DNA of 64,000 bases from a virus: positions 1 to 64,000 of the IMG/VR virus record IMGVR_UViG_3300037475_000162. One strand, given 5' to 3'. Every line of letters starts with the position of its first letter. Position 1 is the first letter of the stretch. Of the stretch, positions 4,718 to 44,166 are shown piece after piece. Position numbers and translations under genes: made by a program. The notes beneath the pieces were generated by a model. It did no database searches. It was not told the DNA's origin and worked only from the letters and a program-made list of their open reading frames with translations.

Positions 4718-6238
4718 TTGATCGCGCAGACGCTATCCCTGATCGGCCGGGCCGCCAACAACGTGGCGAAGGCCCTGCTGCCGCCGCGGAACGAGTTGCC
4801 CGCCGGCGGCGACTACGGCGCCGGCCAGGCCCCCGGACCCAACAGGGGCGGCATTCCGGCCGAGCTGAAGCGCGAGGGCCTCCCCTGGCGCGGCCCGGAG
4901 ATCGAGGCGCGCAGCGAGGTCGGCCGCGAGGTCGCCCAGGAGCGGCTGCGCAGCGGGCCGGCGGGGGTGGTGTACCCGTGGTTCACCAGCAACGCGATCA
5001 ACGACGGCAGCCGCGAGACGCAGACGATGCGCGGCGACTACCGGATGATGGAGAGCGACCCCAACGTCAGCGCCGCCGTCAAGGGGCTGATTTTCTCGGT
5101 GGCGACCCAGGACCTGACCATCACGCCGGCGAAGCGCGGCGACCCGGCCAGCGAGATGCACGCGGAATTCATCCGCTGGAATGTGACGAAGCGCCTCGCG
5201 GGCGGCAGTTTCGGGCTGATCTGGGACATGCTCTCGGGAGGATTGCGCGACGGCTACAGCCTGCTCTACAAGAGCTACGGCGTGCAGCGCGACGGCCTGT
5301 GGGGCAACCCGGCGAAGTGGCCGCTGCGGCAGGTCAAGGCCGTGGACGTCGGCAACGACGCAGTGCCGCAAACGGACAGCCACAGGAATGTTGTCGGCGT
5401 TCTCGGGCTGAGGTACAATGCGGGAGTTGAACTGTCTCCTTCCGAGTTCATCTACTTCCGCCACTGCCCCTCGTACAACAACCCGCTCGGCGTCTCGGCC
5501 TTCCGCTGCGTGTGGAGGGCGTGGAAGTTTACGCAGGCGATCTGGCTGCTGCGCGGGATTGCCAGCGAGAAACGGACGACGCCGTTCATTCACGGCTCTT
5601 ACCGCACGTCGAGCCAGAAGGCGCAGCTCGAGGCGATGCTGGCGAAGGTGTCGTCGCAGAACTGGGCCAGCCTGCCCGAGGGCGTGCTGCTGAAGGCGCT
5701 CGACATCGCCCAGGGCAGCGAGGAGCATTACAAGAGCGTAATAGGCGACTTGCAGGAGCTCATCTATCTCGGCATCCAGCACGGAACGCTTCAGGCGCTG
5801 ACGGGCGGCGAGGGCGAGGAGCGCGGCAACAGCAAGGTCCACAAGTCGCAGACCGACCTCGTCCGGACGGCCCTCTCCAAGATGGTCGAGGCGTGCCTCA
5901 ACGACTACGAGGCGGGCTGGATTCGCGAGTGCATCGATCTGAATTTCCCCGACGCGGACGATTACCCCGTCGCCACGCTGGGCAATCCCAGCGTGGAGGA
6001 GTTGATCCAGCTGATGCAGCTCTACAAGGGATTGCAGGAGCTGGGGCTGAAGCTCGGCAAGGATCGGACCTACGAACAGTTCGCGATCCAGCCGCCGGAG
6101 AGCGACGACGACGTGCTGGAGCCTGCGGCGAAGGAGCAGACGCCTGTACCCGGACTGCCCGGTCCGGGAGCGCCGTCCGACGATGTGCAGCCGCCCGAAC
6201 CCGAGCCGGTCGGGGGAGGGGTGAAGCATGCCGCATAG
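4718..6238 (+). CDS. Portal protein (DUF935 / Mu gp29-like)
   Basis: A 506-residue protein. The middle (MRGDYRMMESDPNVSAAVKG, the GYSLLYKSYG strand, FIYFRHCPSYNNPLG, SEKRTTPFIHG, LGIQHGTLQALTGG) has the order of motifs of DUF935 portal proteins, the type used by Mu-like heads. The C-terminus is acidic and Pro-rich (PESDDDVLEPA). It forms the ring at the capsid vertex for DNA entry and exit. The start is TTG with GTGAGGAC upstream, 10 bases after terL. Confidence 0.85.
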   Translation: MIAQTLSLIGRAANNVAKALLPPRNELPAGGDYGAGQAPGPNRGGIPAELKREGLPWRGPEIEARSEVGREVAQERLRSGPAGVVYPWFTSNAINDGSRETQTMRGDYRMMESDPNVSAAVKGLIFSVATQDLTITPAKRGDPASEMHAEFIRWNVTKRLAGGSFGLIWDMLSGGLRDGYSLLYKSYGVQRDGLWGNPAKWPLRQVKAVDVGNDAVPQTDSHRNVVGVLGLRYNAGVELSPSEFIYFRHCPSYNNPLGVSAFRCVWRAWKFTQAIWLLRGIASEKRTTPFIHGSYRTSSQKAQLEAMLAKVSSQNWASLPEGVLLKALDIAQGSEEHYKSVIGDLQELIYLGIQHGTLQALTGGEGEERGNSKVHKSQTDLVRTALSKMVEACLNDYEAGWIRECIDLNFPDADDYPVATLGNPSVEELIQLMQLYKGLQELGLKLGKDRTYEQFAIQPPESDDDVLEPAAKEQTPVPGLPGPGAPSDDVQPPEPEPVGGGVKHAA

Positions 6239-7085
6239 CAGCGTGTTCCCCCGGCTGACGGAGGCCTTGCGACCGCGGCTGTTCCCACGGCTGGCGCACG
6301 CGCTGGAGCGATTCGCGGAGAAGGGCTGGGACGAGAAGAAGCATCCGCGCGGCCAGCCGGGCAACAAGGGAGAGTTCGGCCCGGGCGGCGCAGACAGCAG
6401 CAAGAAAGAGACGAAGCCGGGAGGCAAAGAGACGAAGCCGGCCGCGGGCAAGACGGAGAAACCGAAGCTGGCCGGCAAGCCGCAGAAGCCGCCGCCGCAA
6501 AAGCAGATGAGCGAGAAGGCGCTTCGTGCAAAGGCCGCTCACGTCATGGTGGACAGGGACATTCAGCGATACACGGAGGAGCATAACGAGCCGCGTTTCG
6601 CAAAGGTGGTCGGCGGCGAGAGCCTCCCCGACAGCGAACCGTACGACGTCGGAACGGCTCGCGATCTGATCGAGCTGAAGACGCTGGTGAAGAACGGCAA
6701 TGGCAAGCTCACGATGGACAAGTACGCCCAGGTGCGGAAGGTCGTCAAGGAAGAGGAAACCGGCAAGGTCTTCCACACGGTTGTCAGCGACGATCAGCAG
6801 GTGTTCAACAGCCTGGGCGAGGGGCGGCACGACGACAGCAAGCGAGTGTACTACTACCGCCGCGGCGTGGCCGGCAGCGCCCGTATAGCGGCCATGCTCA
6901 AAGTCGAGAGCGAGGCCGAGTTGAAGAAGCTGATGGCCATGCCGGAGGACCAACTTCCGCCAGCGGCGAAACGCACAGACGGCAAGCTGCGATCCGGCAA
7001 GTGGGAATTCGTGCAGACGGGAAATCGCGGCGCGGGGTATTACCGCAACAAGGACACCGGCGAGGAGGCGCATCCCAAGAAATGA
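6228..7085 (+). CDS. Head-associated protein with PD-(D/E)xK-like C-terminal domain
   Basis: A 285-residue protein beginning inside the last codons of the portal gene. Residues about 34-50 contain the WDEKKHPRGQPGNKGEFGPGG element common in phage head morphogenesis proteins, followed by a Lys/Pro-rich linker. The C-terminal domain (SEPYDVGTARDLIELKTLV, then KVFHTVVSDD and YYYRRGVAGS) resembles the accessory domain fused to Mu F-like head proteins in other phages. PYD followed by ELK is compatible with a PD-(D/E)xK nuclease core, which is an inference. It also has an RFAE motif at residues 28-31, like the cleavage-site-like motifs in the next gene. Confidence 0.6.
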   Translation: MPHSSVFPRLTEALRPRLFPRLAHALERFAEKGWDEKKHPRGQPGNKGEFGPGGADSSKKETKPGGKETKPAAGKTEKPKLAGKPQKPPPQKQMSEKALRAKAAHVMVDRDIQRYTEEHNEPRFAKVVGGESLPDSEPYDVGTARDLIELKTLVKNGNGKLTMDKYAQVRKVVKEEETGKVFHTVVSDDQQVFNSLGEGRHDDSKRVYYYRRGVAGSARIAAMLKVESEAELKKLMAMPEDQLPPAAKRTDGKLRSGKWEFVQTGNRGAGYYRNKDTGEEAHPKK

Positions 7086-10000
7086 GCGTCTACATCGCCA
7101 CCTCCGAAGCGCCGCCCGCATTCGTCGCCAGCAACACCGGCTGGGGAGAGTTCTGCCGCTGGGCCGAGCATCTCGAAGGCGCGCCTGCGGCGGCGCACCT
7201 CGCGGCCTACGGATGGACGGACGACGTGGAGGAGTTGGCCGGCGAACTGCAAGACGCGACCGGTGCGGACGACGACGTCAAGGCTGTGGCGGCCACGCTT
7301 TGCGGTTTGCTCGACGGCGCCGAGACCGTGGTTGTCACGGACGGCGTGTCGCCCGGCGACGGCGGCAGCGACCCCGACAGCTTCGGCGAAGACCATCCGT
7401 CTCCTGACGACGCCCCGGATCTCGCCGAGTTTTACGCCTCCCTCTGCAACGACCTCGCCGCGGCCGGCGACGACCCCGGCGACGTCGCCGACGAGGCGAG
7501 CGAGGAGCTTGCCGCCGACGGCTGGAGCATCGTGGAGGACGGCGGGAAGTGGAAGGCGAGCCATGAGAGCGAGGCGGACGCCGACGAGGAAGCGGAAAAG
7601 TTCACCGAGCGGGCGCCGAAAGGCGGCGTGTCGATCGGGGGCAAGTTCTTCGCCGGCGGCAAATGGATTCCCAACAAGGATCTCGCCAACGCCTCCCCGG
7701 AAGACAAGGCGAAGCTCGCCGCCGCGAAGGCTGACTCCGACACGAAGGCCGCCGGCCGCAAGCAGGAGCGCGCCGGTCGCGGCAGCATCGACGTCAGGGG
7801 CCTGCAAGACCGCCTGGCGAAGCACGCCGGCGCCCACACGCTGACAGGCAGGGAGCGGGGCGGGGCGGCTGCGATTGCCACGCTCTTGCACCGGCACCAC
7901 GGCGAGCTGGCGCTGCACCGCGTCGAGGAACTGGCCGACCGCGTCGAGCGGACGCTGAAGACCATCGGCGACGACCACCCCAACAGCGAGGGGCTGCGGC
8001 AGCAGTTCGGGAAGAGGCTGGCGCAACTGCACGCGGCGGCGGAGCGGCTGGGCGCGAAGGGCGTCACTGGCAAGGTGGAGAAGCCGAAGCAGGCTGCTTC
8101 ACCGCAGGCAAATAAATCCGCCAATCCGGCGGCCGACGCCGCGGCGCTGCACGGCGACGTCGCCCGGCGACTGATAGCGATGAACAAGATGCCGCCGGAA
8201 GAGGCGAAGGAAGCCTACGCCGCGCTGCACAAGGACGTGGTCGATCGATTGCGGGCGATGGACGTGGCGCACCAGCCCTTGAGCGGGCTTCGCGAGATTG
8301 CCAGGGCGGTGCCCGGGGCCAACCCGCGCGGCAGCGCCCACGACGTGGCTGACTCCATTGTGCGGACCATCCTCTCGCCCATGATGATCAGCCTGGAGGG
8401 GCATGGCACGACGGGGGCGCAGTTCCCCGAGGACGTCTTCCCTTCGCGGCCGGAGAAGACGGACCGCCGCCAGGCGGCCGAGCAAGCGAAGGCCGACCGG
8501 CAGCAGGCCGGCCTGAAGCGGCAGGAGCAGGAGCGGCAGCAGCAGGCCGCCGCCGCCTCGCCGCAGGCAAAAACCGCCGCCGCCGCCGTCAAGGCCGTCC
8601 AGCATGGAGCGGCGAACGGAACGGGCAAGGCCGACCTCGACGCGAAGCTCGACGCGCTCGATCTGCCGTCCATGTCCCCGGCCGACCTACAAGGCGCGGC
8701 GCGCGTGCTGGGGGTGAACGCCTCTGGCGGCAAGGCCGAGCTGATCGGCCGAATTCGCCGATCGGTCCATGAGATACCCGAGATCCGCCTGGCCGGCGCA
8801 GGCAGCGTATCGCCCGCGCCCGCAGCGAAGCCCGAAGGCGAGGGCGCGGCATACCTCGCCGCGAAGCTCAAGGGCATGGGCGTTCCTGACGGTCCGCGCG
8901 CCCTTCCCGCCTCGCGGCCGGGCAAGACCCCGGCCGAGCATCAGGCGGCGGTGATGGAGTCGATCCGCCGGGCCGGGCTGAAGCCGGGCGGACTGCTGTC
9001 GCTGGCGAAACTGCACCTCGCCACGGGCTTGCCGCTGGCCGACATGCACGCCGCCGTCAACGACCTGCGCCGGCAGGGCAAGCTGACGGGCACGCGGCAC
9101 GAAAGCCGTGGCGGCCTGCCGCGGGACGTGGCCGCGGCGGCGCTGACGGACCCCGGCGGCGGGCAGATTCACCATGTGAGCGTGCGGGAGGAAGGCGGCG
9201 GGCATGGGCCGGCCAGGCACGCCGAACGCTTCCCCCGCCTTGCATCCGCCCTGCTGCGGTTCAGCGAGGGCGGCGGCAGCGACCTGCACCGGATCAACGG
9301 CATCGAGTTGTTCGCCACGGGCAACCACCGCGGCGTGGACTACACCCTCGACGACCTGAAGGACATGGTGCGGAATTTCGAGGAGTACAGCGCCCCGCGA
9401 GAGAACAGGGCGCCGCGGCAAGCGATGCCGTTTGTGATTGGCCACGGCGAGGACCAGTCCATCCTCGAGCGCAGCGACCTGCCCGCGGCGGGATGGTTCA
9501 AGCAGCTGGGAATTCGCCCGTCGCCGATCCCGGAAGACCCCGGCCGGTACGTCCTGGAGGGGGACGCGGCCGACGTGCCGGGCAAGGTGGCGCGGCTGAT
9601 CAGGAGCCGCGCCTACCCGAAGGTCAGCCTGGAGATTTACCCTCCGGAACTGCACCCGTTCAAGGGACGGGGAATGATGGCGCGTCGCGCGGCCATGCTC
9701 GGCGGCGACGTGCCCCAGGTGAAGGACCTCGACGACATCCCGAGGCCCGAGCCGATGAGCGAGCCGGCGCGACGCTGGCCGACAATCTTACGATTCAGCG
9801 AGTCCGCCACGGTTCGCGGCTGTCTCGCCTTCTTTTCCGAGGTGATCGACATGGACCCCGAACAGTTGAAAAGCAAGCTGGTCGAGCAGCACGGCATGGA
9901 TCCGGCGGCCGTCGAGAAGATGCACCCCGACGCGATGGCCGAGGTGTGTAGGAAAATGGACGAGAAGGACGCGAAGGCCGGCATGGACGACGACAAGGCC

Positions 10001-17443: not shown

Positions 17444-18313
17444 ATGGCAGGCGTATACGGCTATCAGGGACAGCTGGCGATCGACGCGGGAGCGACCCCC
17501 ACCCTGCGCTACGACTTCCAGAACGAATCATTGATCTGCGACGAGAACTTCATCGACACCAACGGGCTGCGCGGCACGCGAGCGCGCGCCTCCGAGCGCA
17601 TCCGCCAGGGCAACCGCAGGGTTCACGGGCAGCTCAAGCTGATTCCGACCACGCAGGAGCTGGCGCAGCTCCTGCCGTGGATTCTCGGCACGGCCGTCAG
17701 CGGCACCACGTACGCGCTGGCGGACACCGTGCCGACGCGCTACGTCACCATCGACCGGGTGTCAAAGGTGTTCGCCTATAACGGCTGCGTCGTGGACAGG
17801 GCGACCTTCCACGGAACGCAGGGCGGGGCGCTGGAGCTGATCCTCGACCTCGTCGGCGTTGACGAGACGATCACGAATTCCGGGACGTTCGGCAGTCTGA
17901 GTCTGGACCTCAGCACGCCGCCGCTGATCTTCACCGACCTCTCGCTATCCGTCAACAGCGCGACGGACCAGTGCAAGGAGTTCACGCTGGTCGTGGACAA
18001 CGACATCGATAAGGAGCGGTTCTTCAACAGTCCGACGCTCACCAGCGGCTATCCCAGGGACCGGCACATCACGATCACGCACCCCGTGCCCTACGGGGAT
18101 TCGTCGGCGAGTTACGCCACGGGCGTTGCCGGCGTTGCCGTCACGGCAACCTTCACCGACAGCGCCCACGTTCTCACGTTCACGTTCGCCAATGTGAAGT
18201 ACCCGCGGCGCAGCCCGACCGTGCCGGGCCGCGAGGAGATCATGCTGCCCCTGGTGGGCCAATGTTATAAAAGTGGATCTACTTTGGAGCTTGTTACGAC
18301 TCTGGCGATTTAA
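17444..18313 (+). CDS. Major tail tube protein
   Basis: A 289-residue protein. The beginning (GYQGQLAIDAGATPTLRYDFQNESL) and the alternating strands with ALELILDLVGVDE and FTLVVDNDIDKERFFNS match the style of siphovirus tube proteins (tail tube fold). Position before the tail chaperone pair is diagnostic. The polymer of this protein forms the hollow tail. Confidence 0.75.
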   Translation: MAGVYGYQGQLAIDAGATPTLRYDFQNESLICDENFIDTNGLRGTRARASERIRQGNRRVHGQLKLIPTTQELAQLLPWILGTAVSGTTYALADTVPTRYVTIDRVSKVFAYNGCVVDRATFHGTQGGALELILDLVGVDETITNSGTFGSLSLDLSTPPLIFTDLSLSVNSATDQCKEFTLVVDNDIDKERFFNSPTLTSGYPRDRHITITHPVPYGDSSASYATGVAGVAVTATFTDSAHVLTFTFANVKYPRRSPTVPGREEIMLPLVGQCYKSGSTLELVTTLAI

Positions 18314-19054: not shown

Positions 19055-20716
19055 ATGCCGAGCCTGACGGAACTGATCGCCGCCGACCGCGACCTGGTGG
19101 ACGCCATGCAGAGCCTGCCGGATCGGCTGGCCGCGCAGCAGCGCATCGACCGCCGCGACGAGGCCCGCGCGGTCGGCGAGCGGCAGGGCGTCCTCGACCC
19201 GTACGCCGACGGCGGCAGCAAGGCGGAGCAGGCATACCGCAAGATCCAGGCGCTGGAATCGCGGATGCTGGGCGAGCACATCGGCCGCATTCAGGCGCTG
19301 GGCGCAGGGGCGCAGCAGATCGGTTCCGGCATCGGCGGCGCGGCGGGCTTTGCCGGCAAGGGCCTGGGCAACGCCCTGGGAGGAGCGGCCGGCGGGGCCG
19401 CAATGGGAACGGCAGGCGCCGTGTACCTGGCGACGACGGAGGCGCTGGGCAAGACGGCGCAGGCCATGAACATCTTCGCCAACGGCGCGATGAGCGACGC
19501 GCAGAAGCGAGATGCGTTTGCCTCGGAGTTCCTTCCTGGCGCGGACAAGCTGATTGCCTTCCGCGACGCCCTCAACGGAGTGACGGAGGCCCTGCGAAAG
19601 ACCGAGCTGCGGTTTCAATTGCGCGGCCTGGAGCAGCAGCAGCAGTTTCGCGAGCGACAGACGACGGCGCAGGGGGCTGCCGAGGTGGCGCTGCACGCCA
19701 CCCGGGCGACCGCCTTCGGGGCCATTGTGACGCCGCCGACGCCGCTGGGCGACCGGACGACGTGGCAAGGCGATCTGGCGCATCAGGAAGCGCTGCGGCG
19801 GATGGAGCGGCAGGACGAAATTGCCCGCGCCCGCGCCGGAGTGACGGGCGCAGGCGCGGCGCTCGAGGAAAGCCAGAAGCGCCTGGAAGGACTGGAAGGA
19901 TACCGCCACAGGATCGGCGTTACCCTTGGCCTGCGGGAGAGACAGTTACGCAAGCAGCAATGGATCGAGAGGGACACACCCGAAAAGCGGCGGATGGTGG
20001 AGCGCAAGCTCGTCGAGGGCGGGTCGAACCCGTTCCTGGCCCGGACCGCCGTGGCGGCTCTCGGCGCCGGCGTCAGCAACAAGGCGGGCGTCATTGCCGC
20101 CGGCCGCGAGGTCCAGTTGGCCGCGACCGACGCGGCCAACAACGAGAAGCTGATCCAGGGCGAGATCAACCGTCAGAAGGAGCTGGGGGTGCAGCTCGCC
20201 GAAAAAGAAAGCGCCCTGCGCAAGGCGAACATCGGCGCGGCCCGGACGGAACTGGAGATCACGCGGGCGCGCATCCAGCTTGGCGTCAACCAGTCCGTCC
20301 GCGCAGGAGGGATGCAGCCCTGGGAGAGACAGCAAAGCCTGATGGCGGCGCGCTTTATCAAGCAGCACGGCCTCGCCGCGACCCCGGCATTCATGCAGCA
20401 GCAGGCCGGGGCGATGTTCCCGGAATATGTGCAAAAAGAGCGCGAAAAGTTCGGCCGGACCACGGAGGAGTACAAGGCGGGCGTCAAGGAGGGGTTCGCG
20501 AAGGACATTGACATCGTTGCGGAGCGGGCCAAGGAAGCAAAAATCTCAACGGAGGTGCGAGTGGCCGTGAACCTCGACGAGGCGGCGCTGGGCAAGCGGA
20601 TCGCCGAAGCCATCAGCGACAACTTCCGCGAACTGCTCAAGAGCATCAAGGCTGAGTTCGACGCGCAGCGGAAGCATCTGGAGGCGGGAAACATCATCCG
20701 CAACCGGAGCGGCTGA
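19055..20716 (+). CDS. Tail tape measure protein
   Basis: A 553-residue, mostly helical protein with a hydrophobic Gly/Ala-rich block (about residues 87-130: QQIGSGIGGAAGFAG, GGAAGGAAMGTAGAVYL) flanked by coiled coil. This is the usual tape measure organisation. At about 1.5 Angstrom per residue it would set a tail of roughly 80 nm. It follows the chaperones by one base. No lysozyme domain is seen. Confidence 0.85.
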   Translation: MPSLTELIAADRDLVDAMQSLPDRLAAQQRIDRRDEARAVGERQGVLDPYADGGSKAEQAYRKIQALESRMLGEHIGRIQALGAGAQQIGSGIGGAAGFAGKGLGNALGGAAGGAAMGTAGAVYLATTEALGKTAQAMNIFANGAMSDAQKRDAFASEFLPGADKLIAFRDALNGVTEALRKTELRFQLRGLEQQQQFRERQTTAQGAAEVALHATRATAFGAIVTPPTPLGDRTTWQGDLAHQEALRRMERQDEIARARAGVTGAGAALEESQKRLEGLEGYRHRIGVTLGLRERQLRKQQWIERDTPEKRRMVERKLVEGGSNPFLARTAVAALGAGVSNKAGVIAAGREVQLAATDAANNEKLIQGEINRQKELGVQLAEKESALRKANIGAARTELEITRARIQLGVNQSVRAGGMQPWERQQSLMAARFIKQHGLAATPAFMQQQAGAMFPEYVQKEREKFGRTTEEYKAGVKEGFAKDIDIVAERAKEAKISTEVRVAVNLDEAALGKRIAEAISDNFRELLKSIKAEFDAQRKHLEAGNIIRNRSG

Positions 20717-21574: not shown

Positions 21575-22300
21575 ATGCAGCTTTCCTACGGCAATTTCTC
21601 GTTCGACCCGAACTCAACGGAGATGAGTTCGCGCGTCGAGACGCTGTGGAACAGCGGCGGCCAGCCGTACGCGCAGCGGCGGACGCTCAAGGTCACGGGG
21701 TACCTCTCGGGCAACGGCCAGGATGCGCTGATCCAGCAGGAATCGGCCCTGCGGACGGCGCTGTCGGTGAGCTTCAGCGACCTGCTCTTTGTCAGCGATT
21801 CCGGGCAGCAATCGCCCGTGTCGATCCTGGGCGCGGGCAGCACGACCGGCGTGCAGATTCACAGCCTGGAGTTCTCGGCGACCAGCAAGGAGGGGGAATA
21901 CACGACCGTCCGCAACTTCTCCTTCGTCGCCGAGGCGGAGTATCCGCTGGCCAACAGCGTCCCGCTGCTGCTGGCGTTCCGCGAGACGATCACCGTCTGG
22001 GGCGGCGGCCCCATCTGGAAGTTCCGCATGGCGGTCAACGGCCCGCCGCAGAAGCAGCTCGTCTACCCGCAGTCGATCTATTACGCGACCCAGCAGGGCG
22101 AGCTGACCGGCTATCTGGTGGCGCGGACGCCGCCGCCGCCGCTCTGGCCGGGGGCGCTGATGCACGCGGGGCGGATCGGCGACCGCGGCCCCGACCGCAA
22201 GGGCTTCGGCCATTACCAGGGTGAGACGATCACGTGGCAGTACGATTTCGAGGCGTCGGCGCCGTTCCCCAATGCCCGGCCGAACGTGTGGATCAAGTGA
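21575..22300 (+). CDS. Distal tail-like protein
   Basis: A 241-residue, beta-rich protein after the tape measure. Motifs such as LSYGNFSFDPNSTEM, RTLKVTGYLSGNGQ, SLEFSATSKEGEYTTVRNFSF are consistent with phage distal tail (Dit-like) proteins. Its start, only 91 bases from the divergent moron start, shares the intergenic with it. Confidence 0.5.
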   Translation: MQLSYGNFSFDPNSTEMSSRVETLWNSGGQPYAQRRTLKVTGYLSGNGQDALIQQESALRTALSVSFSDLLFVSDSGQQSPVSILGAGSTTGVQIHSLEFSATSKEGEYTTVRNFSFVAEAEYPLANSVPLLLAFRETITVWGGGPIWKFRMAVNGPPQKQLVYPQSIYYATQQGELTGYLVARTPPPPLWPGALMHAGRIGDRGPDRKGFGHYQGETITWQYDFEASAPFPNARPNVWIK

Positions 22301-24090: not shown

Positions 24091-26076
24091 ATGGCGGGCG
24101 GCGTCATTCACGGAACGGCAAGCTGGCCTGGCGTTATCGCCGTGGAAAGTTGCGTCTATACCATCAGCCATGGCGTCACGCCCGGCACGGCCGTCCTGCG
24201 CGTGCAGCCGCAGTTGACCGCCATCCCGCCCTACGGGAACCTGACGATCAGCGACGGGCAGCGGCTGATTTTGATTCGCGACGCGCGCATGGACGCGCTG
24301 AAGATGCACCAGGACGAGTCCGGCGTGTACTGGACGCTGGAGATCGTCGATCGCCGCTGGCGGTGGCGCGACCTGGGGGCGCTGTCGGGCTGCTACAACC
24401 AGCTCGACCCGTTCGGCAAGCTGATCCCGTTCACGATCCGCAGCCCGAAGGAGCTGGCGAAGATTTGCCTCGACGCGATGGGAGAGGCGAGTTACGTCAT
24501 CGACTTCCCCGAGGGGCTGAACTACCCCGGACCCTTGACCAGCCTGCCCATCACGAACATCACGGGGACGAACCCGCCGGTCAACTGGGTGGGCGTGCCG
24601 CCGGTGCAGGCGCTGGCCCAGCTCGCCGAGCAGTACAGCCTCCGCGTGATCCTGCGTCTGTCGGACAACACGGTCCTGGTGACCGTCCCGGGGGTGGGCG
24701 GCAAGCTGCCGCCCGGCAGCGTCCACCGCGCCGGCCCCAGCCTGAAGAACCCCGAGGCGCCGGACAGTATCGCCGTGCTGGGCTCGCCGACCAAGTACCA
24801 GGCGCGGCTGGTCATGCGCGCCGTGGGCGAGGAGTGGGACGGCAGCTATCGGCCCATCGACGAACTGTCCTATGCGCCGCCGAAGCGCAAGGACGGCAAG
24901 TCGCCGTGGATCACCTGTTTCCCGCCGATGTTCGGCATGAACCTTGACGGCACGACAAAGGTAGGCATCCAGGCGACCCAGCGGCTGACCATCGCCGACG
25001 CACTGAAGCTGGCGCAGCGGTCGGTCTACAAGTGCTACCAGCTGGTGAACCTGGCCGGGGACTGGTCGTATGGCATCGCCGTGCCCGGGATCACGGGGAG
25101 ACTCATCCGTCCGCAGCAGGTGGTGTTGCAGGACACGCAGGTTGATCAGATCGTGCCGACCGCCAACGACCTGGGGATCATCGACAAGTTCACGGGCCAG
25201 CCCTTCACGGTGAACCTCTACAACGGCTGGTCGCGCGACAAGCCGGCGGCGGCCTACGGGGCGCACTACAAGGATTTGAACCCCGGCGTCTGGTACAAGA
25301 AGCGCGCCAAGCAGGTCAACACCCTGCCGACCGATCAGATTTTCGTGCCGTTCAGTCTCGACCCGGCGCGCTACCTGATGACCTTCAGCGACTACGTCTA
25401 CCAGCTTGTGGCGCCGAAGAGTACGCCGCCGTCGCCCTTTGTCCCGCCGCAGACGACCGGCTCGCTGCTCGACGGCTTCGGCACCACCACGTTGACGTTC
25501 AAGGACGACCCCGACCCCAGGCCGGACGGCTTCATCTATCCCACGGTCGTCACCCTGCAAACGGGCATTTTCGTCCGCGACCCGCTGACCAACAGCCCCT
25601 ACTGCTACTTCAAGGTGATTCCCACGGGCAACGCCGCGGGAACCACCCCCCGCGTCTATTCGCACCCCGACGTGCAATTGAACATCACCTGCGACTTCGA
25701 CCCAAAAAACATGCCGGTGAAGGCGCGGATTCTGGAGGCCGACCCGCTGCTCCGCGCCGACAGCTACCTGGCGGCGCACCTGGCGGAGTTCCTCGTCTCC
25801 GGCGGCACGACGGTCGATTACAACGGCATCATGGCGATCGACCTGGACGGGGCCGTCCAGCAGGTGACGTGGTCGATCGGCGGCGACGGCGCGACGACGA
25901 CGGCGAGCGTCAACAGCGAGCATTCCGCGTGGATTCCGCCCTACCCGGTGCGACGCCGCGCGGAGGCGCTGCCGCCGGAACTGTCCTCCTCGCCCGGCGC
26001 GGGCGTCAGCGACGGCCTGGTCAGCATGCCCACGACGACTGGCGCGCCGGGCGCAGCCCCGGGGGAGGCCCGATGA
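24091..26076 (+). CDS. Baseplate hub / tail-associated structural protein
   Basis: A 661-residue protein with parts resembling gp27-like hub modules (LTISDGQRLILIRDARMDAL, YWTLEIVDRRWRWRD, PPVQALAQLAEQYSLRVILR). A central part with RSVYKCYQLVNL is a predicted alpha/beta insertion. It lies between fibre genes, start after GGTCGTAACG. No lytic domain is visible. Confidence 0.55.
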   Translation: MAGGVIHGTASWPGVIAVESCVYTISHGVTPGTAVLRVQPQLTAIPPYGNLTISDGQRLILIRDARMDALKMHQDESGVYWTLEIVDRRWRWRDLGALSGCYNQLDPFGKLIPFTIRSPKELAKICLDAMGEASYVIDFPEGLNYPGPLTSLPITNITGTNPPVNWVGVPPVQALAQLAEQYSLRVILRLSDNTVLVTVPGVGGKLPPGSVHRAGPSLKNPEAPDSIAVLGSPTKYQARLVMRAVGEEWDGSYRPIDELSYAPPKRKDGKSPWITCFPPMFGMNLDGTTKVGIQATQRLTIADALKLAQRSVYKCYQLVNLAGDWSYGIAVPGITGRLIRPQQVVLQDTQVDQIVPTANDLGIIDKFTGQPFTVNLYNGWSRDKPAAAYGAHYKDLNPGVWYKKRAKQVNTLPTDQIFVPFSLDPARYLMTFSDYVYQLVAPKSTPPSPFVPPQTTGSLLDGFGTTTLTFKDDPDPRPDGFIYPTVVTLQTGIFVRDPLTNSPYCYFKVIPTGNAAGTTPRVYSHPDVQLNITCDFDPKNMPVKARILEADPLLRADSYLAAHLAEFLVSGGTTVDYNGIMAIDLDGAVQQVTWSIGGDGATTTASVNSEHSAWIPPYPVRRRAEALPPELSSSPGAGVSDGLVSMPTTTGAPGAAPGEAR

Positions 26077-27497
26077 ACCGCATCCAGCAGCAGGCGCAGA
26101 GCCAGGGGTGGATTCCGCCGATCAACTGGATGATCGTGCAGAACACCGACGACACGCCCGTTCCCCCCTACGGGGTGATGGGCGTTGACGACATCGACGA
26201 CGACGGCAACATCCAGATCAGCCAGTACGACGGCACGCAGGTTACGTTCCTCATCAACAGCGGCGGCTCGATTGCCCCGCAGGCGAACGGCCAGGGACAC
26301 ACGACCTTTCCGGCGATCGTGGCGTATGACGGCGACGACGACCCCGAGGCCGGCGAGACGTGGGGGCCGGTCAAGGGGTCGTGGAAGCTGGGGGCGGCCG
26401 GCAGCGGCTTTACGATCCTGGGCGGCAGCAGCAAGGGACTGACCACGGCGACGGACAGAGGCGCGGAGGACTGCTGCACGGCCTGGGTGCGCATTCTCTG
26501 CGCCGCGGCAGGGGCGGCCGGCTATCCCGGGCTGGTGCAGTTCTATGACACCACCTTTTTCCCCGGGTCGTTCGTTGATTTGGACGGCCGCAGCACGACG
26601 GCCGGGGCCTCGGTGGCGTCGGGCAAGCAGACCGTGACGCCCGCGTCGATGGCGGGCATCCGCATCGGCCAGACGCTCATGCTGGTGGACGGCAACTGCA
26701 AGACCGTGGTGGCGACGGTTACGGGCACGAACACCACCGCCCGCGGCACGGCAAACCTGACCGACGACGCAGTGGCGTCCGTCACCGTGACCCAGGGCGG
26801 CAGCGGCTACACGTCGGCGCCCAGCGTGACGTTCAGCGGCGGCGGCGGCTCGGGGGCCAGCGGCACGGCAACGATTGCCGGCGGCGCGGTGACGGGCGTG
26901 GCGATGACCAGCACCGGCAGCGGCTATACGTCGGCGCCGACGGTGACGTTCGCCGCCTCGCCCGCAGCGGCAAGCAGTTTCACGGCCGACTTCGGCAGCG
27001 CCCTTGCCGCCTACCCCGTGACCGGCGTGACGATCACCGACGGCGGTTCGGGCTACGGCGGCACGGCCCCCACGGTTACGTTCAGCGGCGGCTCGGGCAG
27101 CGGGGCGGCCGGCACGGCAAACCTCGACCCGACGGGCGATTTCGTGGTCTCGGTCACGATGGACACGACCGGCAGCGGCTACAACCCCACGGCCCCGGAC
27201 GTGAGCTTCAGCGCGCCCGGGGGCATGGGCGGCGTGACGGCGACAGGCACGGCGGACGTGGGCGGTCCGGTAACGATTTATCTCTCTGGCGTGTGGGTGC
27301 AGTTCTGGCCGCAGGATTACACGCCGGAGAAGAACGACGTGAGTGAACCCGTGGTCTTCCTCGCCACGCGCGAGGAAGACGCGCCCGACGGCGTGGCGGT
27401 GTACCTGGCCGAGGGCGGCATAACGGCCGTCTGGCTTTGCCCGAACGGCAAGAGCGTCACCACCTACACGGGAAAGGCGGTGGCGCAAAGTGGGTAG
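26073..27497 (+). CDS. Virion protein with GGSGY beta-repeats
   Basis: A 474-residue protein. Residues about 235-390 have four imperfect repeats of the type VTxxGSGYTSAPTVTFSGG, a turn-rich module found in phage and bacterial surface proteins. It begins with ATGA overlap and has a well-formed N-terminal beta domain (NWMIVQNTDDTPVPPYGVMGV). Likely a tail fibre or collar component. The repeats could recombine. Confidence 0.6.
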   Translation: MNRIQQQAQSQGWIPPINWMIVQNTDDTPVPPYGVMGVDDIDDDGNIQISQYDGTQVTFLINSGGSIAPQANGQGHTTFPAIVAYDGDDDPEAGETWGPVKGSWKLGAAGSGFTILGGSSKGLTTATDRGAEDCCTAWVRILCAAAGAAGYPGLVQFYDTTFFPGSFVDLDGRSTTAGASVASGKQTVTPASMAGIRIGQTLMLVDGNCKTVVATVTGTNTTARGTANLTDDAVASVTVTQGGSGYTSAPSVTFSGGGGSGASGTATIAGGAVTGVAMTSTGSGYTSAPTVTFAASPAAASSFTADFGSALAAYPVTGVTITDGGSGYGGTAPTVTFSGGSGSGAAGTANLDPTGDFVVSVTMDTTGSGYNPTAPDVSFSAPGGMGGVTATGTADVGGPVTIYLSGVWVQFWPQDYTPEKNDVSEPVVFLATREEDAPDGVAVYLAEGGITAVWLCPNGKSVTTYTGKAVAQSG

Positions 27498-27990
27498 ACG
27501 AATCATCCCGCAGGGCTGGCCGTGCTGCTGTCCGGAGTCGAGCAGCAGCAACTCCAGCTCCAGCGGTAGTTCGCGGTCGGGGGGCGGCCCGTGCGACCCG
27601 GGGGCGTTCAACGCCCTTGATCTAGACATCGTTTACACGGGGTCCTTTTTCCTGACCGTCAGCGCCCCGGGGTTCCCCTTTGACGGGGTAGTGGTGGAGT
27701 TAACCTACCAGGGGCCGCCGGCCCCGCCGCCACCCATCGGAGGACCCGTCGTATGGTCGGGGACCGCCCTGGGGTGCGAGGTGGACCTTGTGCTCGCCAC
27801 GTTCACCAGCGAATTCGACTCGACGGTGTACTGCGCCGTATGGGAGATCGGCTTCATCAACTGCTGTCCACAGACGATCACCGGGCAGGCGGACGTTAGC
27901 CCCAGCCGCATCACGTCCTCGACGACGATGGCGTTCAGCAACTGGGTCAGCAACGGCTGCGGCATCACCAGCGCGACACTCACGCCATGA
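27490..27990 (+). CDS. Ser-rich, Cys-containing virion-region protein
   Basis: A 166-residue protein with GTG start overlapping the previous stop. A short CCC cluster and a Ser/Asn-rich linker (SSSSNSSSSGSSRSGGG) lead into a beta-sandwich domain with several cysteines. Possibly a small fibre head or adhesin. Unrecognised. Confidence 0.5.
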   Translation: MGRRIIPQGWPCCCPESSSSNSSSSGSSRSGGGPCDPGAFNALDLDIVYTGSFFLTVSAPGFPFDGVVVELTYQGPPAPPPPIGGPVVWSGTALGCEVDLVLATFTSEFDSTVYCAVWEIGFINCCPQTITGQADVSPSRITSSTTMAFSNWVSNGCGITSATLTP

Positions 27991-28217: not shown

Positions 28218-29651
28218 GTGCCCTGCCCGGAGACAACGACGGTGTTTGATCGCGTGTACCTCATCAATCTGGAGAGCCGGCCCGACCGCCTGGAGGCGTT
28301 CCGCGAGCGGCAGAAACTGCGCGGCTGGAAACTACCCGACCCCATCGTTTATCCGGCGATCCACGGGGACACGGTGGGGGCGCCGAAGCGGTTCACCGAG
28401 GGGGGCGGGGCGCACGGATGCCGGCAGAGCCATGTTCGCATCCTTGAGGACTGCCTCATGGACGGCGTCGAGAGCGTGCTTGTGATGGAGGACGACGCCG
28501 AGTGGTTTGACGAGGTGTGGCTGCGCCTGGAGTCGTTCTTGAAAGTGGTTCCCGCCGATTGGGACTGTCTCATGCTGGGCGGCTGGCACGAGCGGCCGTC
28601 CACGCCGGTCGGGCCGGGCGTCTGCCGGGCGGTGAAGGTGGGAGGAACCCACGCCTACGCCGTGCGCGGCCGGGCCATGAAATCCTTGCTTGCTCTGTGG
28701 TACGACTGCACGGTGCATATCGACTGGGCGATGAGCGACCACTGGCAGAAGAAATGGAACACCTACTGCCCGACGCCCTTCCTGTTCGGGCAGGGGGCGG
28801 GCCGCAGCGACATCAGCGGCCGATCGCGACTTCAGCCGCAGTTCGGCGGCCCCGCCGCGCCCATCGCCGCAGTTCCCGGCGATCGCGTCTACAGCCACGC
28901 CGGGGACTGCGGCGATCTGATTGCCGCGCTGCCCGTACTGGCGGCGCGGCCGGGCGCGCTGCGGCTGGTGCAGCACGCCTGCACGGGCAAGCGCATGACC
29001 CGCGACCGGGTCGAATCGCTGCGGCCCTTGCTCGAAGCGCAGAGCTACGTTCGCGGCGTCGAGTGGGCCGACGCCTACGACGGCGAGCGCCTCGACAAGG
29101 GAATCCGCCAGTATTACCAGCCGCATTTGAACATCGCGGACATGCAATGTGACGCCTTCCACGTCGCCCACTGGCCGCGCGGGAAACCGTGGCTCCGCGT
29201 GCCAGAGGTGCGCAAGGTCGCCCGCGTGGCCCTGGCCCGCAGCGCCCGCTACCACACCGCCGCCTTCCCGTGGAAAGAGGTGCTGGCGAAGTACGGGTCG
29301 GAGGCTGTGTTTCTCGGGACCGTCCAGGAGCATGCGGCGTTCTGCGCGGAGGTGGGGCCAGTCCCCTACCATCCCACGGCCGACTTCCTGGCGCTGGCGG
29401 AAGTGATTGCCGGCGCGGAACTGGTCGCCGTGAACCAGACGGCGATCTTCTGGCTGGCGGAGGGATTGAAAAAGCCCGTGCTGCTGGAAGTCTTCCCCCC
29501 GGCCGACAACTGCAACTTCGCCCGGCCGGCCCACGTCCACGGCCTGTCGGAGGGCGCATTGCCGGAGATCGAGGATCTTGCGGCGGCGAACGTCGCCACG
29601 CCCCCGGCGGTTGTGCGGACGGGGCGGCGGGTGATCGGAGGCGCCCCATGA
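28218..29651 (+). CDS. Two-domain glycosyltransferase (GT25 + GT9-like)
   Basis: A 477-residue protein. Residues about 11-200 fit the GT25 family (VYLINLESRPDRLEAF, Gly/His motif GAHGCRQSH, EDD at 91-93 as nucleotide-sugar/metal site). Residues about 215-460 resemble a GT-B fold of the heptosyltransferase (GT9) kind (GDRVYSHAGDCGDLIAALP, AVNQTAIFWLAEGLKKPVLLEVF). GT25 enzymes add galactose or similar sugars to LPS or collagen-like residues. Located between fibre genes and coupled to the next enzyme, so may modify the phage fibre or the host envelope. GTG start with GGCGGCAGG upstream. Confidence 0.75.
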   Translation: MPCPETTTVFDRVYLINLESRPDRLEAFRERQKLRGWKLPDPIVYPAIHGDTVGAPKRFTEGGGAHGCRQSHVRILEDCLMDGVESVLVMEDDAEWFDEVWLRLESFLKVVPADWDCLMLGGWHERPSTPVGPGVCRAVKVGGTHAYAVRGRAMKSLLALWYDCTVHIDWAMSDHWQKKWNTYCPTPFLFGQGAGRSDISGRSRLQPQFGGPAAPIAAVPGDRVYSHAGDCGDLIAALPVLAARPGALRLVQHACTGKRMTRDRVESLRPLLEAQSYVRGVEWADAYDGERLDKGIRQYYQPHLNIADMQCDAFHVAHWPRGKPWLRVPEVRKVARVALARSARYHTAAFPWKEVLAKYGSEAVFLGTVQEHAAFCAEVGPVPYHPTADFLALAEVIAGAELVAVNQTAIFWLAEGLKKPVLLEVFPPADNCNFARPAHVHGLSEGALPEIEDLAAANVATPPAVVRTGRRVIGGAP

Positions 29652-30769
29652 AGGCGGTCGTGGTCCTGGGAGCGGCAAGCAGCGGCACGAAGATGCTCAC
29701 GGAGTGCCTGGTGCGCGGCGGCTACTGGGGGGACTTCGGGTTCGAGCAGCGCCTGGACAGCCTGGATTTCGCCCAGGCGGGGAAGTGCGACATCGTCTTC
29801 CGCCGCAGCTATCCGCACGGCGAGGACTGGCCCGACCTGGCGGAGGTCGTGCAGCGCCTGCGCCGGGCCGGTTACGAGGATGTCGAGCCGTGCGTGGTCC
29901 AGCGCGACCGGGAGTGCGCGGCGCGGTCGCAGGTGCGCATGGGACACAGCCCGAGCCTTGCCGAGGCGCGGCGGAAGGTGGACCAGGCGACGGCGCTGAT
30001 CCTCCGGCAGATCGCCGCCTGCGGGGCGGTCCCCCACGTCGTGAGCTACGAGGCGTTTGTCGCGGACGCCCAGGTGCGCGACGCCTTCTGCGCCCGCTTC
30101 CGGATCGCCCCGCCGGAGATGGATTTCCGCGACGAGAACCAGAAGTATCAGGCCGGGTCAACGGCCTTCGACGTGGCCGAATACTTCTGGGACCGCGACC
30201 CCTGGCCGGGCAACGATCCCACGGTGGACTGGCGGCGGCTCTATCAGGAGAAGCACCGGCTCGCCGTGTTGCTCCAGCCGCAGAGCGTGGCCGAGATCGG
30301 CGTGCGGGCGGGCTATTCGGCGGCGGCGTTCCTGGCGGCCGGGGCGGCCGGGGCGATGTCTTACACGGGCTTCGACCGGGGCGACACGGGCGGCTGGGGC
30401 GGCACTCCGGGGGCGCTGGCGCACGCCCGGCGCATGCTGCCGGAGCGGTTCCCCGGCGCGGCCGTCGCGATCACCGAATGCGACACGCAGAAGGTCGCGG
30501 AACTGTCGGCGCGGGACGTGGACCTCTTTCACGTCGATGGGGACCACTCGCGAGACGGTTGCCTCCGGGATCTGGAGCTGGCCCTGGCGTGCCGGCCCCG
30601 GTGGATCCTGGTGGACGACTGCACTCACCACGCCGACACGGTGGGCCGGGCCGTCGCGGCGTTTCTCCAGCGGCACGCGCTGCCGCATGTCATGCTGGAC
30701 ACCGTGCGCGGCGACTGCCTCATGCAGGTTTGCCCGGCGACTGGAAAACGGCGCAGGATCGAGGGGTGA
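29648..30769 (+). CDS. Two-domain sulfotransferase-like + SAM methyltransferase
   Basis: A 373-residue protein coupled to the glycosyltransferase by ATGA. Residues 4-16 (VVVLGAASSGTKM) form a P-loop-like PAPS-binding motif of sulfotransferases. The second half is a class I SAM methyltransferase of the Methyltransf_24 kind (VAEIGVRAGYSAAAFL with Glu216-Gly218, then VDLFHVDGDHSRDGC and ILVDDCTHH). It would sulfate and methylate the same target, likely a sugar. Both partners are in one polypeptide, so coordinated modification is likely. Confidence 0.7.
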   Translation: MKAVVVLGAASSGTKMLTECLVRGGYWGDFGFEQRLDSLDFAQAGKCDIVFRRSYPHGEDWPDLAEVVQRLRRAGYEDVEPCVVQRDRECAARSQVRMGHSPSLAEARRKVDQATALILRQIAACGAVPHVVSYEAFVADAQVRDAFCARFRIAPPEMDFRDENQKYQAGSTAFDVAEYFWDRDPWPGNDPTVDWRRLYQEKHRLAVLLQPQSVAEIGVRAGYSAAAFLAAGAAGAMSYTGFDRGDTGGWGGTPGALAHARRMLPERFPGAAVAITECDTQKVAELSARDVDLFHVDGDHSRDGCLRDLELALACRPRWILVDDCTHHADTVGRAVAAFLQRHALPHVMLDTVRGDCLMQVCPATGKRRRIEG

Positions 30770-32650: not shown

Positions 32651-33505
32651 ATGACCAACGACCTTTACCCTGACCGCTTCAACCGGGATGAGTTCGGCCT
32701 GATCGACGGCGAGCAGCCGATCGACTGGACAAACCGCCTGAATGACGGGCTCGTCTTCGCCCCGGCGATCGGGCAGGCGCCGCCGGGGTGGACCGGCTCG
32801 CCGACGACCGTTTTCGACATGGTTCGCGGCGGAAAGACGCCAAACGACGGCGTGATTCACGGCGGCGTGACGTGGCAGCCGGGGCCGTTCGGGTCGTGCC
32901 TGGCGTTTGATGGGAGTACAGAGTATGTGAGTATCCCAGATTCGCCGTCGCTGCGTCCAGCGCAAATTTCTCTGGCGCTGTGGACCTGCTCTTTTAGCTA
33001 TTCCACGCTAACCGTGCTGTGCGGAAAACAGCGCTCGGGCAGCCTTTTCCCCACGTCAGCCAGCTACGGCCTGGTTTTTCGCACCGGACCGGCGCGCATG
33101 ACTTTTACGATATGCGACGGGTCGGACAACGAATATTATGCCGCGTCCACGGGTCAGGTTACGGGTGTGTGGCAACACTGGGTGGGAACGTATGACGGGA
33201 CCACGCAAAAACTGTATCTGGACGGAGTCCTGCAAGATATGCAGTCGCAAGGAATAGCGATTGCTCAAACGGCAAGCAAGCCTTTCCTGGTGGGTGGGTA
33301 CACGCCCATTGGTATGTTGACGATTCCGAATTTCCCGTTCAACGGTTCCCTGGACGGCCTCCGCATCTTCTCCCGCGCCCTCTCGCCCGCCGAGATCGCC
33401 CAGGACTACGCCGACCCGTTCCGCTGGTGCCGGCGTGGGCGGCGGGTGCTGCGGGGGGCGGCGGCAAGCGGATTGCTGCTCAGGCGACGGAGGGCGATGG
33501 CATGA
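32651..33505 (+). CDS. LamG/concanavalin-like lectin domain protein
   Basis: A 284-residue protein. From about residue 85 (CLAFDGSTEYVSIPDSPSL) to 250 it has the order of a LamG/ConA-like jelly roll: ISLALWTCSF, GVWQHWVGTYDGTTQKLYLDG and FNGSLDGLRIFSRALSPAEI. Such domains bind carbohydrates. Position in the fibre cluster suggests a receptor-binding component. The last 25 residues are Arg-rich. Confidence 0.75.
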   Translation: MTNDLYPDRFNRDEFGLIDGEQPIDWTNRLNDGLVFAPAIGQAPPGWTGSPTTVFDMVRGGKTPNDGVIHGGVTWQPGPFGSCLAFDGSTEYVSIPDSPSLRPAQISLALWTCSFSYSTLTVLCGKQRSGSLFPTSASYGLVFRTGPARMTFTICDGSDNEYYAASTGQVTGVWQHWVGTYDGTTQKLYLDGVLQDMQSQGIAIAQTASKPFLVGGYTPIGMLTIPNFPFNGSLDGLRIFSRALSPAEIAQDYADPFRWCRRGRRVLRGAAASGLLLRRRRAMA

Positions 33506-42249: not shown

Positions 42250-42897
42250 GTGAGCGACTGGACCAATCTCCTGAGCGCCGCCGCCGCCGATCCGGCCGAC
42301 GTGCTGCCCCGCATGCAGATGGCGGACCATCTGCGCGACGAGGGGCGCAGCGAGGCGGTTGCCCTGGAGTCGTTCGGGCCGATGCCGTTTTCGTGGTGGT
42401 CGAACGAACGGCTGTTTTTCGACAGCAGCAGCGGCAGCGGCAGCGGCAGAGGCAGCGGCAGCGGCATCGGCAGCGGCATCGGCAGAGGCAGCGGCATCGG
42501 CAGAGGCAGCGGCAGAGGCAGCGGCAGCGGCAGCGGCAGCGGCAGCGGCATCGGCAGCGGCATCGGCAGCGGCATCGGCAGCGGCAGCGGCAGCGGCAGC
42601 GGCAGCGGCAGCGGAGTCTTCTTCATGGAAACCGGCAAGGCGTACCTCGTTCACTGCGGCGACTGGCACACGATTGTCGGGCGCGTCGTCCGCCAGGCCG
42701 GCCCATTTCTCTACGAGATGGAGACGGTCTCAAAAATCTCCGAGACGAACAACGGAGATTGCTGGGAGGAACTGGCGGGCGGAAACGTACAGATGCGCGC
42801 CGCCTGCAACTACAAGCACTACAAGGTGCGCGCCCTGGTGCCCTTGAATGTGCTCTGTTTTGAATGGCTCGGATTACTTCCACAGGAGGCCCTCTGA
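42250..42897 (+). CDS. Ser-Gly repeat protein with TIGR02996-like N-terminus
   Basis: A 215-residue protein with a GTG start behind GGAGAGGAGAC. Residues 1-45 match the planctomycete repeat-companion pattern (ADPADVLPRMQMADHLRDEGR). Residues about 59-122 are almost pure Gly-Ser with scattered Ile and Arg, encoded by tandem GGCAGC-type hexamers. Residues about 125-215 form a compact alpha/beta domain (KAYLVHCGDWHTIVGRVV...). The linker length is expected to vary by slippage. Function unknown. Confidence 0.65.
   Translation: MSDWTNLLSAAAADPADVLPRMQMADHLRDEGRSEAVALESFGPMPFSWWSNERLFFDSSSGSGSGRGSGSGIGSGIGRGSGIGRGSGRGSGSGSGSGSGIGSGIGSGIGSGSGSGSGSGSGVFFMETGKAYLVHCGDWHTIVGRVVRQAGPFLYEMETVSKISETNNGDCWEELAGGNVQMRAACNYKHYKVRALVPLNVLCFEWLGLLPQEAL
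42424..42615 (+). repeat. Tandem hexanucleotide (GGCAGC)n repeat, coding
   Basis: About 32 copies of GGCAGC with variants GGCATC and GGCAGA over 192 bases. Insertion or deletion of whole units keeps frame in the SG-repeat gene. All six frames are open across it, hence the many spurious frames seen here. Confidence 0.9.
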
Positions 42898-42913: not shown

Positions 42914-43048
42914 ATGCTCGATGACTGGCAGTTGGTGTCGCAGATCGTGGCCGTGGAGATCGCCGGTCCCTGCCTGTTGGCGGCCCTGGGGCTGGCGGTG
43001 TACCTGATGGAGCGGTGGACCCGGCCGGCAGGAGATCCGAGACGATGA
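42914..43048 (+). CDS. Small single-helix membrane protein
   Basis: A 44-residue protein with GGAGCAAGG upstream. One hydrophobic helix (IVAVEIAGPCLLAALGLAVYL) and a short basic tail. Its stop overlaps the ATG of the next gene (ATGA). Confidence 0.55.
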   Translation: MLDDWQLVSQIVAVEIAGPCLLAALGLAVYLMERWTRPAGDPRR

Positions 43049-44166
43049 ATTTGCCCCTACTCGCTCCGACCACTGACAACACCATCGCCTCGACGCCCGA
43101 GGTGGACGGACTGCTTGCCGCTGAGGCCCCCGTGGCAATCGGTGTCAGCGGCGGAAAGGACTCCTGCGCCATGGCCTTCGCTCTCGTCGAGCAACTCGAC
43201 GGCATCGGGCACGCTGGCCCGCGAATCCTCATCCACAGCGACCTGGGGCGGACGGAGTGGAAGGACAGCCTCCCCACCTGCGAGAGGCTGGCGAAGGCAA
43301 CCGGCGTTGAACTCGTCGTCGTCCGCCGCAAGGCCGGCGACATGCTGGCCCGCTGGCAGGGCCGGTGGACGAACAACGTCGAGCGATACCTGACGCTCTC
43401 CTGCGTCAAGCTGATCCTACCCTGGTCCACGCCGTCGATGCGGTTCTGCACGTCGGAACTCAAGATGGACGTGATCTGTGCGGAGCTGGTCCGCCGGTTT
43501 GGCGGCCGGACCATCCTCAGCGCCAGCGGCATCCGCGCCGATGAGAGCGCCAACCGGGCCCAGGCCCCTGTTGCCAAGCGGCAGCCGAAGCTGTGCCGCG
43601 CGTCGCGCAAGCCGGTGCGGATCACAACCGGCCTGGACTGGCACCCCATTCTCCGCTGGTCGGTCGATGACGTGTGGAGTCTGTGCCGGCAGCGGGGCTT
43701 CCTCATGCATGAGGCGTACACGCGCTACGGCAGCAGCCGGGTTTCCTGCTGCTTCTGCATCCTGGGAAACAACGGCGACCTTCTCGCCGCCGCCGGGTGC
43801 GACGACAACCACGACCTGTACCGGCAGATGGTTGCCCTTGAGGCTGTGTCCACGTTCGCCTTCCAGGGCGGCGAATGGCTTGGAGACGTGGCCCCGCACC
43901 TGCTCACAGCCGAAATACTGGACGGCGTCCGGCAGGCCAAGGAGGCGGGCAAGCGTCGTGAGGCAGCAGAGGCTCGCATCCCGAAGCACCTGCTCTACAC
44001 CAAGGGCTGGCCTACCTGTGTGCCGGCCCACGAAGAGGCGGTCCTGCTGGCGTCCGTCCGGCTCGCCGTGGCGACCGCCGTTGGCCTGACACCTACATTC
44101 ACCGACCCCGACCAGATCATCGCCCGTTATGAGGAGCTTATGCGCATGAAGGCAGAACGAAACTGA
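43045..44166 (+). CDS. PAPS-reductase-like PP-loop protein
   Basis: A 373-residue protein of the phosphoadenosine phosphosulfate reductase family. The PP-loop motif is SGGKDS at residues 35-40. The downstream part has RFCTSELKMDVI, and a cysteine cluster CCFC near residue 234 with other Cys that could hold a cluster or zinc. Phage members of this family are known but their true substrate is often unclear; possibilities are sulfate reduction or transfer of sulfur/AMP to nucleic acids. Standard DndC-type partners are not present. Confidence 0.7.
   Translation: MNLPLLAPTTDNTIASTPEVDGLLAAEAPVAIGVSGGKDSCAMAFALVEQLDGIGHAGPRILIHSDLGRTEWKDSLPTCERLAKATGVELVVVRRKAGDMLARWQGRWTNNVERYLTLSCVKLILPWSTPSMRFCTSELKMDVICAELVRRFGGRTILSASGIRADESANRAQAPVAKRQPKLCRASRKPVRITTGLDWHPILRWSVDDVWSLCRQRGFLMHEAYTRYGSSRVSCCFCILGNNGDLLAAAGCDDNHDLYRQMVALEAVSTFAFQGGEWLGDVAPHLLTAEILDGVRQAKEAGKRREAAEARIPKHLLYTKGWPTCVPAHEEAVLLASVRLAVATAVGLTPTFTDPDQIIARYEELMRMKAERN

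Follow-up and report, generated by a model that had tools for sequence, protein, structure and literature searches.

Gene order and domain families suggest a tail-protein glycosylation cassette of shuffled modules in an IMG/VR virus

The analyzed window (64,000 nucleotides, positions 1-64,000 of a 64,887-base IMG/VR virus record) carries among its tail genes two overlapping genes, P0001 and P0002, which we consider fairly probable to form a phage-encoded virion-decoration cassette, by which a tail protein would be glycosylated and the sugar subsequently O-methylated and probably sulfated. This reading is based on the open reading frames (ORFs), matches to the GT25 and methyltransferase families, a GT-B fold, the position within the tail module and the conserved association of these modules with one another and with Ser-rich proteins. 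The record encodes a Terminase_6N large subunit, a Mu-type portal, a gpT-type head protein and an integrase (as recognized by Pfam), the last of which suggests that the phage may be temperate. A DNA-level search of phages yielded no match.

Both genes are localized on the plus strand. P0001 (28218-29651; GTG start, 477 aa), in which GT25 and GT-B domains are combined, shows a coding-type GC content by codon position (0.71/0.49/0.87), and it is overlapped through an ATGA by P0002 (29648-30769; ATG start, 373 aa). The initial annotation had described this two-gene layout with four domains; both ORFs turned out to be complete and the overlap was confirmed, and the GT25, GT-B and methyltransferase domains were retained, whereas the sulfotransferase half is recognizable at the motif level only. 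In the profile libraries (Pfam, NCBIfam and PHROGs), the second half of P0001 and the first half of P0002 were unmatched.

The N-terminal part of P0001 (residues ~1-212, 28218-28853) was assigned to GT25, as previously claimed, since it exceeds the curated cut-off of PF01755 (5.5e-7; 30.1 bits vs. 24) and since the family motifs could be aligned with four relatives, GCxxSH and EDD being invariant and an S-[DN]-I-type motif also aligned. The domain additionally matches a glucosyltransferase PHROG (3.8e-9) and is 56% identical to its relative in L017. Scanning of viral contigs with the GT25 alignment gave 79 loci. Some of the GT25 proteins found (L017 7977-9311, L018 7983-9374, L021 2251-3579, L035 8007-9023 and L107 6995-8005) have, instead of GT-B, an additional region at the C-terminus, to which Pfam gives no match and in which an H-x-G-x-W/R-type motif recurs.

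For the C-terminal part of P0001 (residues ~223-454, 28884-29648), no Pfam match was obtained at E-values up to 10, and a GT9 sequence-profile test did not place it in that family. An alignment search revealed relatives of this domain in 80 viral loci, on contigs partly shared with the GT25 loci, and in several of the 79 GT25 loci such a relative adjoins or is fused to GT25. The AlphaFold model, built from 22 sequences (the window and 21 viral relatives), was confident (pLDDT 87, pTM 0.86), and in the fold comparison it matched the GT9 structure 3tov (Z 15.2), WaaC (14.4) and TibC (14.1), with heptosyltransferase II also among the matches at Z 14-15. These GT9-type scores are higher by about 6 than those of the sugar 2-epimerases, which make up a large part of the lower list, and plant NDH-complex chains are placed between the two groups (Z 11.5-13.1). 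A GDxGD motif is invariant in the family. By its modeled fold, the second half of P0001 is therefore a GT-B of GT9 type, referred to here as GT9-like and not assigned as a GT9 member, which confirms and at the same time refines the earlier GT-B claim. The same GT-B family was also seen fused to DUF5672 (L104 390-2906 and L105 7374-8735) and, in L104, additionally to GT2, so this domain joins other sugar modules too.

The C-terminal part of P0002 (30167-30766) is a class I SAM methyltransferase, as had been claimed: residues 216-314 match Methyltransf_24 (PF13578; 3e-10 for the whole protein and 1e-10 for the domain alone) with 41.3 bits, over the curated cut-off of 26.3. The first ~170 residues (29648-30166) contain, ordered as in sulfotransferases, AVVVLGAASSGT at residue 3, corresponding to the sulfotransferase-type 5'-phosphosulfate P-loop, VQRDRECAARS at residue 84, corresponding to the R(x7)S 3'-phosphate motif, and Tyr-Glu at residue 134. 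An equal motif order occurred in none of 20,000 shuffles and in 2 of 2,683 genes of viral loci, these two being one gene on two contigs, by its motifs likely a sulfotransferase. No match of P0002 to the sulfotransferase profiles PF13469 and PF00685 was found, a profile comparison of its N-terminal half with viral sulfotransferase domains failed (2.7% probability), and the single-sequence fold model (pLDDT 41) was too poor for a fold search. The sulfotransferase-like claim thus stood as regards motif order but gained no profile or fold support, and we describe this half as sulfotransferase-like by motif without counting it as a family member. Homologs of P0002 were searched for by pattern and tblastn, with the whole or half protein, and none was found in phages, plasmids, viral contigs or genome contigs, nor in 16 cassette or GT-B records, the single weak match to the methyltransferase half (E 0.03) being located in a phage. 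As pattern-based scans reach close relatives only, this absence is weak evidence; with no homolog detected, the tie of P0002 to the kit rests on adjacency.

The place among tail genes was confirmed in the window and is conserved in relatives. Upstream of the cassette there are a weak tape-measure match (at 19055) and a fibre/baseplate-type repeat protein (26073-27497, plus strand; PHROG baseplate, tail and connector repeats, best 2.8e-22), and downstream of it a virion-type protein with the lectin fold Laminin_G_3 (32651-33505, plus strand; PF13385 2.5e-23, PHROG virion structural protein 5e-13). Two further tail-module genes of the plus strand, 17444-18313 (phmmer down to 5e-16) and 21575-22300 (down to 1.6e-7), have homologs in equal order upstream of the GT25/GT-B pair in L107, L035 and L067. 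Tail genes precede the cassette in six other contigs (L020, L024, L035, L036, L096 and L107); in L024, L036 and L096, PHROG matches of tape-measure or fibre type were obtained. The glycosyltransferase genes thus keep their linkage to virion genes across relatives, as expected of a virion-glycosylation system, and the tail position suggests late expression of the cassette.

The association of modules is likewise conserved in homologs, although not in the exact form seen in the window; this check could have refuted the initial annotation and did not. Eight other contigs (L020, L024, L035, L036, L067, L096, L099 and L107, with L035 and L067 closely related to each other) have GT-B directly after GT25 or fused to it, and in several a methyltransferase or sulfotransferase module adjoins GT25 or GT-B or forms a fusion with one of them. 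In L024, GT25, TylF methyltransferase and GT-B follow one another in a single 707-residue protein, L096 encodes GT25 and then GT-B-TylF, the order in L099 is GT25, GT-B, methyltransferase and radical SAM, and in L107 it is GT25, GT-B, nucleotide-sugar transferase and a methyltransferase-like ORF below the Pfam cut-off. TylF is a family of sugar O-methyltransferases. Fusions of GT25 with sulfotransferase domains occur in seven viral contigs, confirmed by Pfam in all five checked (L025, L026, L029, L042 and L043) and by a local profile in L022 and L031. The four-domain order of the window was absent from all other contigs examined; as the modules recur shuffled and P0002 is without a detected homolog, it is the kit that is conserved and not the exact set.

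The candidate acceptor is a 166-aa protein encoded two genes upstream of the cassette (27490-27990, plus strand), with the stretch ESSSSNSSSSGSSRSGGG (11 Ser of 15), which is the Ser-densest among the 50 window genes checked but is short and falls under the threshold of 16 in 25 used in the counts below. This gene occupies the place of the Ser-rich tail protein in L107 and L035, and a Ser-rich gene was detected in L017, L018 and L021, the closest relatives of the window's GT25 for which the upstream sequence is long enough. A Ser/Thr-rich tail protein was found just upstream in 10 of the 14 cassettes with GT-B or sulfotransferase, i.e., in 5/7 of the GT25+GT-B and 5/7 of the GT25-sulfotransferase ones, compared with 5/59 other GT25 loci and 0/53 loci with GT-B only (stop-to-stop ORFs; 16 Ser+Thr in 25 plus a Ser run of four). 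Called genes under slightly different rules, with downstream genes allowed, gave 6/8, 6/7, 4/60 and 0/55 for the same four classes, the gene caller having in some cases selected the frame antisense to a Ser tract. The Ser/Thr tract of L029 reaches up to several hundred residues, and the cassettes of L020, L024 and L043 are without a Ser-rich gene. All six Ser codons are used in 6 of 8 tracts inspected, five in one, and three in the short tract of the window; with such mixed codons, a simple DNA repeat does not explain the tracts. A side observation concerns L096, where a Ser-rich fibre-like region and GT25 share one uninterrupted reading frame (5566-7998), possibly a fused acceptor and enzyme.

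It should be stressed that in the GT25 tree all 16 positives are located within one set of 38 rows, which includes the window, and that the Ser-rich label changes 7 times, versus 14.9 in shuffles. Since the contigs are related, this pattern is one of clustering and not a set of independent events, and the Ser-rich genes may be no more than markers of a single tail type. L005, a phage with a related terminase (43% TerL), was the only control that has this tail type but lacks GT25; none of the ORFs in the 37 kb covered passed the Ser-rich threshold (most, 12/25), which, as a single and weak control, agrees with the link between GT25 and Ser-rich genes.

Taken as a mechanism, P0001 would put sugars on a tail protein through its two separate domains, GT25 and the GT9/TibC-like GT-B, TibC being a protein glycosyltransferase. 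The acceptor would most likely be the serines of the Ser-rich protein (27490-27990), or else the fibre-type protein at 26073, a second candidate for O-glycosylation, and P0002 would next O-methylate the sugar and probably sulfate it as well, using PAPS that would come from the host, as no APS kinase was found in the record. Enzyme activity, acceptor and donor sugars are what we infer from the genes, as are sulfation and the sequence in which the steps proceed. The earlier proposal had a sugar added first and then sulfate and methyl; neither this order nor the occurrence of sulfation was supported by the analysis, sulfation being backed by motifs only. Given that GT25/GT-B relatives lie beside Ser-rich tail proteins in other viruses, the cassette probably coats the phage's own tail with a modified sugar.

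As regards the chemistry, the main rival is that P0001 decorates the virion while the first half of P0002 is some other P-loop protein or a degenerate domain and the methyltransferase alone matters. We regard this as possible though rather unlikely: the failure of all sulfotransferase models and of the profile comparison speaks for it, and in L024, L096 and L099, all of them with a GT25/GT-B pair, it is a methyltransferase that accompanies the pair, but the three sulfotransferase motif elements with the right order and spacing, never reproduced in the shuffles, argue against it, as do the true sulfotransferase domains fused to the same GT25 clade elsewhere. As regards the target, the initial annotation had left virion proteins and host surface sugars side by side, and the main rival is the latter, i.e., the alteration of host surface polysaccharide in a lysogen (seroconversion), blocking other phages. 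Lipopolysaccharide synthesis is the setting in which GT25 and GT9 are best known (as in the Pfam name and the WaaC fold), and an integrase is present. However, the genes are inside the tail module, co-directional with tail genes, where relatives also have them, and their neighbors are Ser-rich tail-region proteins, with late expression suggested. Virion decoration is thus favored by the conserved association and tail position, and we judge the lysogen explanation unlikely.

A further rival, hypermodification of phage DNA bases by the cassette, appears highly improbable. Glycosyltransferases and sulfotransferases have been proposed for such hypermodification in phages (PMC10829341), and a phage DNA-methyltransferase PHROG matches P0002 weakly (5.6e-4). 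On the other hand, a Tet_JBP dioxygenase was not found in the record or in seven cassette records (a weak argument, as these are fragments), the genes are localized in the tail module and not among replication genes, and the methyltransferase belongs to Methyltransf_24 here and to TylF in relatives.

Virion glycosylation by phages and phage GT25 genes are already known. Glycans have been reported on the major capsid proteins of the mycobacteriophages Che8 and Rita (Freeman et al. 2023, cited in PMC11256854). Phage-encoded glycosyltransferases are involved there as proposed for the window, but their genes are situated close to the 3' genome end and a capsid protein serves as acceptor (PMC11256854), whereas the window has a tail-module cassette of GT25, GT9-like GT-B and methyltransferase, predicted here from the genes. 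In Burkholderia phage AP3 (L009), GT25 directly follows a tail gene, late control gene D, as a likeness; this GT25 is a single domain (27.8% identity over 39% of P0001) with no partner modules in the stretch shown. Known as well is the vicinity of GT25 and sulfotransferase-like genes in the huge phage LR756508 (L010), where by our own reading of the sequence a cluster (LR756508.1 306462-317040) comprises two GT25 genes, several sulfotransferase-like genes and a CMP-sugar synthase-like gene, but these are separate genes of an unannotated record, with no GT-B of the P0001 family seen. The GT25-Sulfotransfer_3 fusions (L025, L026, L029, L042 and L043) share the GT25 clade and mostly have a Ser-rich gene nearby, but their sulfotransferase is recognizable by Pfam, fused to GT25 and not alignable to P0002, and no GT-B or P0002-like gene was seen adjoining them. 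TibC and WaaC of the GT9 group share the GT-B fold over ~220 residues (Z 14.1-14.4) at 14% identity with the P0001 domain, which has no Pfam GT9 match. In Gram-positive bacteria, serine-rich repeat adhesins are glycosylated by dedicated glycosyltransferases encoded beside the Ser-rich surface protein and exported by accessory Sec; with other enzymes and a bacterial adhesin, the likeness is in logic only.

A literature search, with subscription journals mostly outside its reach, found neither a Ser-rich glycosylated phage tail nor the full enzyme set together described, so to our knowledge, and within the literature searched, a shuffled-module cassette beside a Ser-rich tail protein appears undescribed. 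Few cases of phage virion glycosylation are known and enzymes and acceptors are rarely linked in them; in many of the contigs studied here, the arrangement of genes indicates both, namely a domain-shuffled enzyme cassette and, beside it, a candidate Ser-rich acceptor. Should this hold, it would offer testable sugar-, methyl- and sulfate-adding enzymes with their natural protein acceptor, and a possible reason for cassette variation between phages, such as adsorption or escape from surface recognition. A family of GT9-like viral glycosyltransferases is also indicated, which in the window goes undetected by the models of Pfam, NCBIfam and PHROGs. More tentatively, at slightly under even chances, there may be a phage lineage with mucin-like tails, in whose proteins Ser-rich tracts, tens to hundreds of residues long, would be O-glycosylated by a dedicated GT25-based cassette. 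The GT-B, sulfotransferase and methyltransferase modules of this cassette would be reshuffled from phage to phage, so that each would have a capped, sometimes sulfated glycan coat of its own.

Three observations concern other parts of the window. A 553-aa ORF near the contig end (62157-63818), with a CLRCHG motif of the CxxCH haem type and no Pfam match, may be host DNA; a genome-contig search for the host with the terminal protein at 62235 found nothing. The protein encoded at 42250-42897 has a long Ser-Gly/Ile-Gly dipeptide repeat after a match to TIGR02996, a Gemmata-type domain, which is weak and below the cut-off (0.0025) and hints, without proof, at a Gemmata-like planctomycete as a putative host. 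Finally, 43015-44166 encodes a PAPS_reductase-family protein with weak DndC-like similarity.
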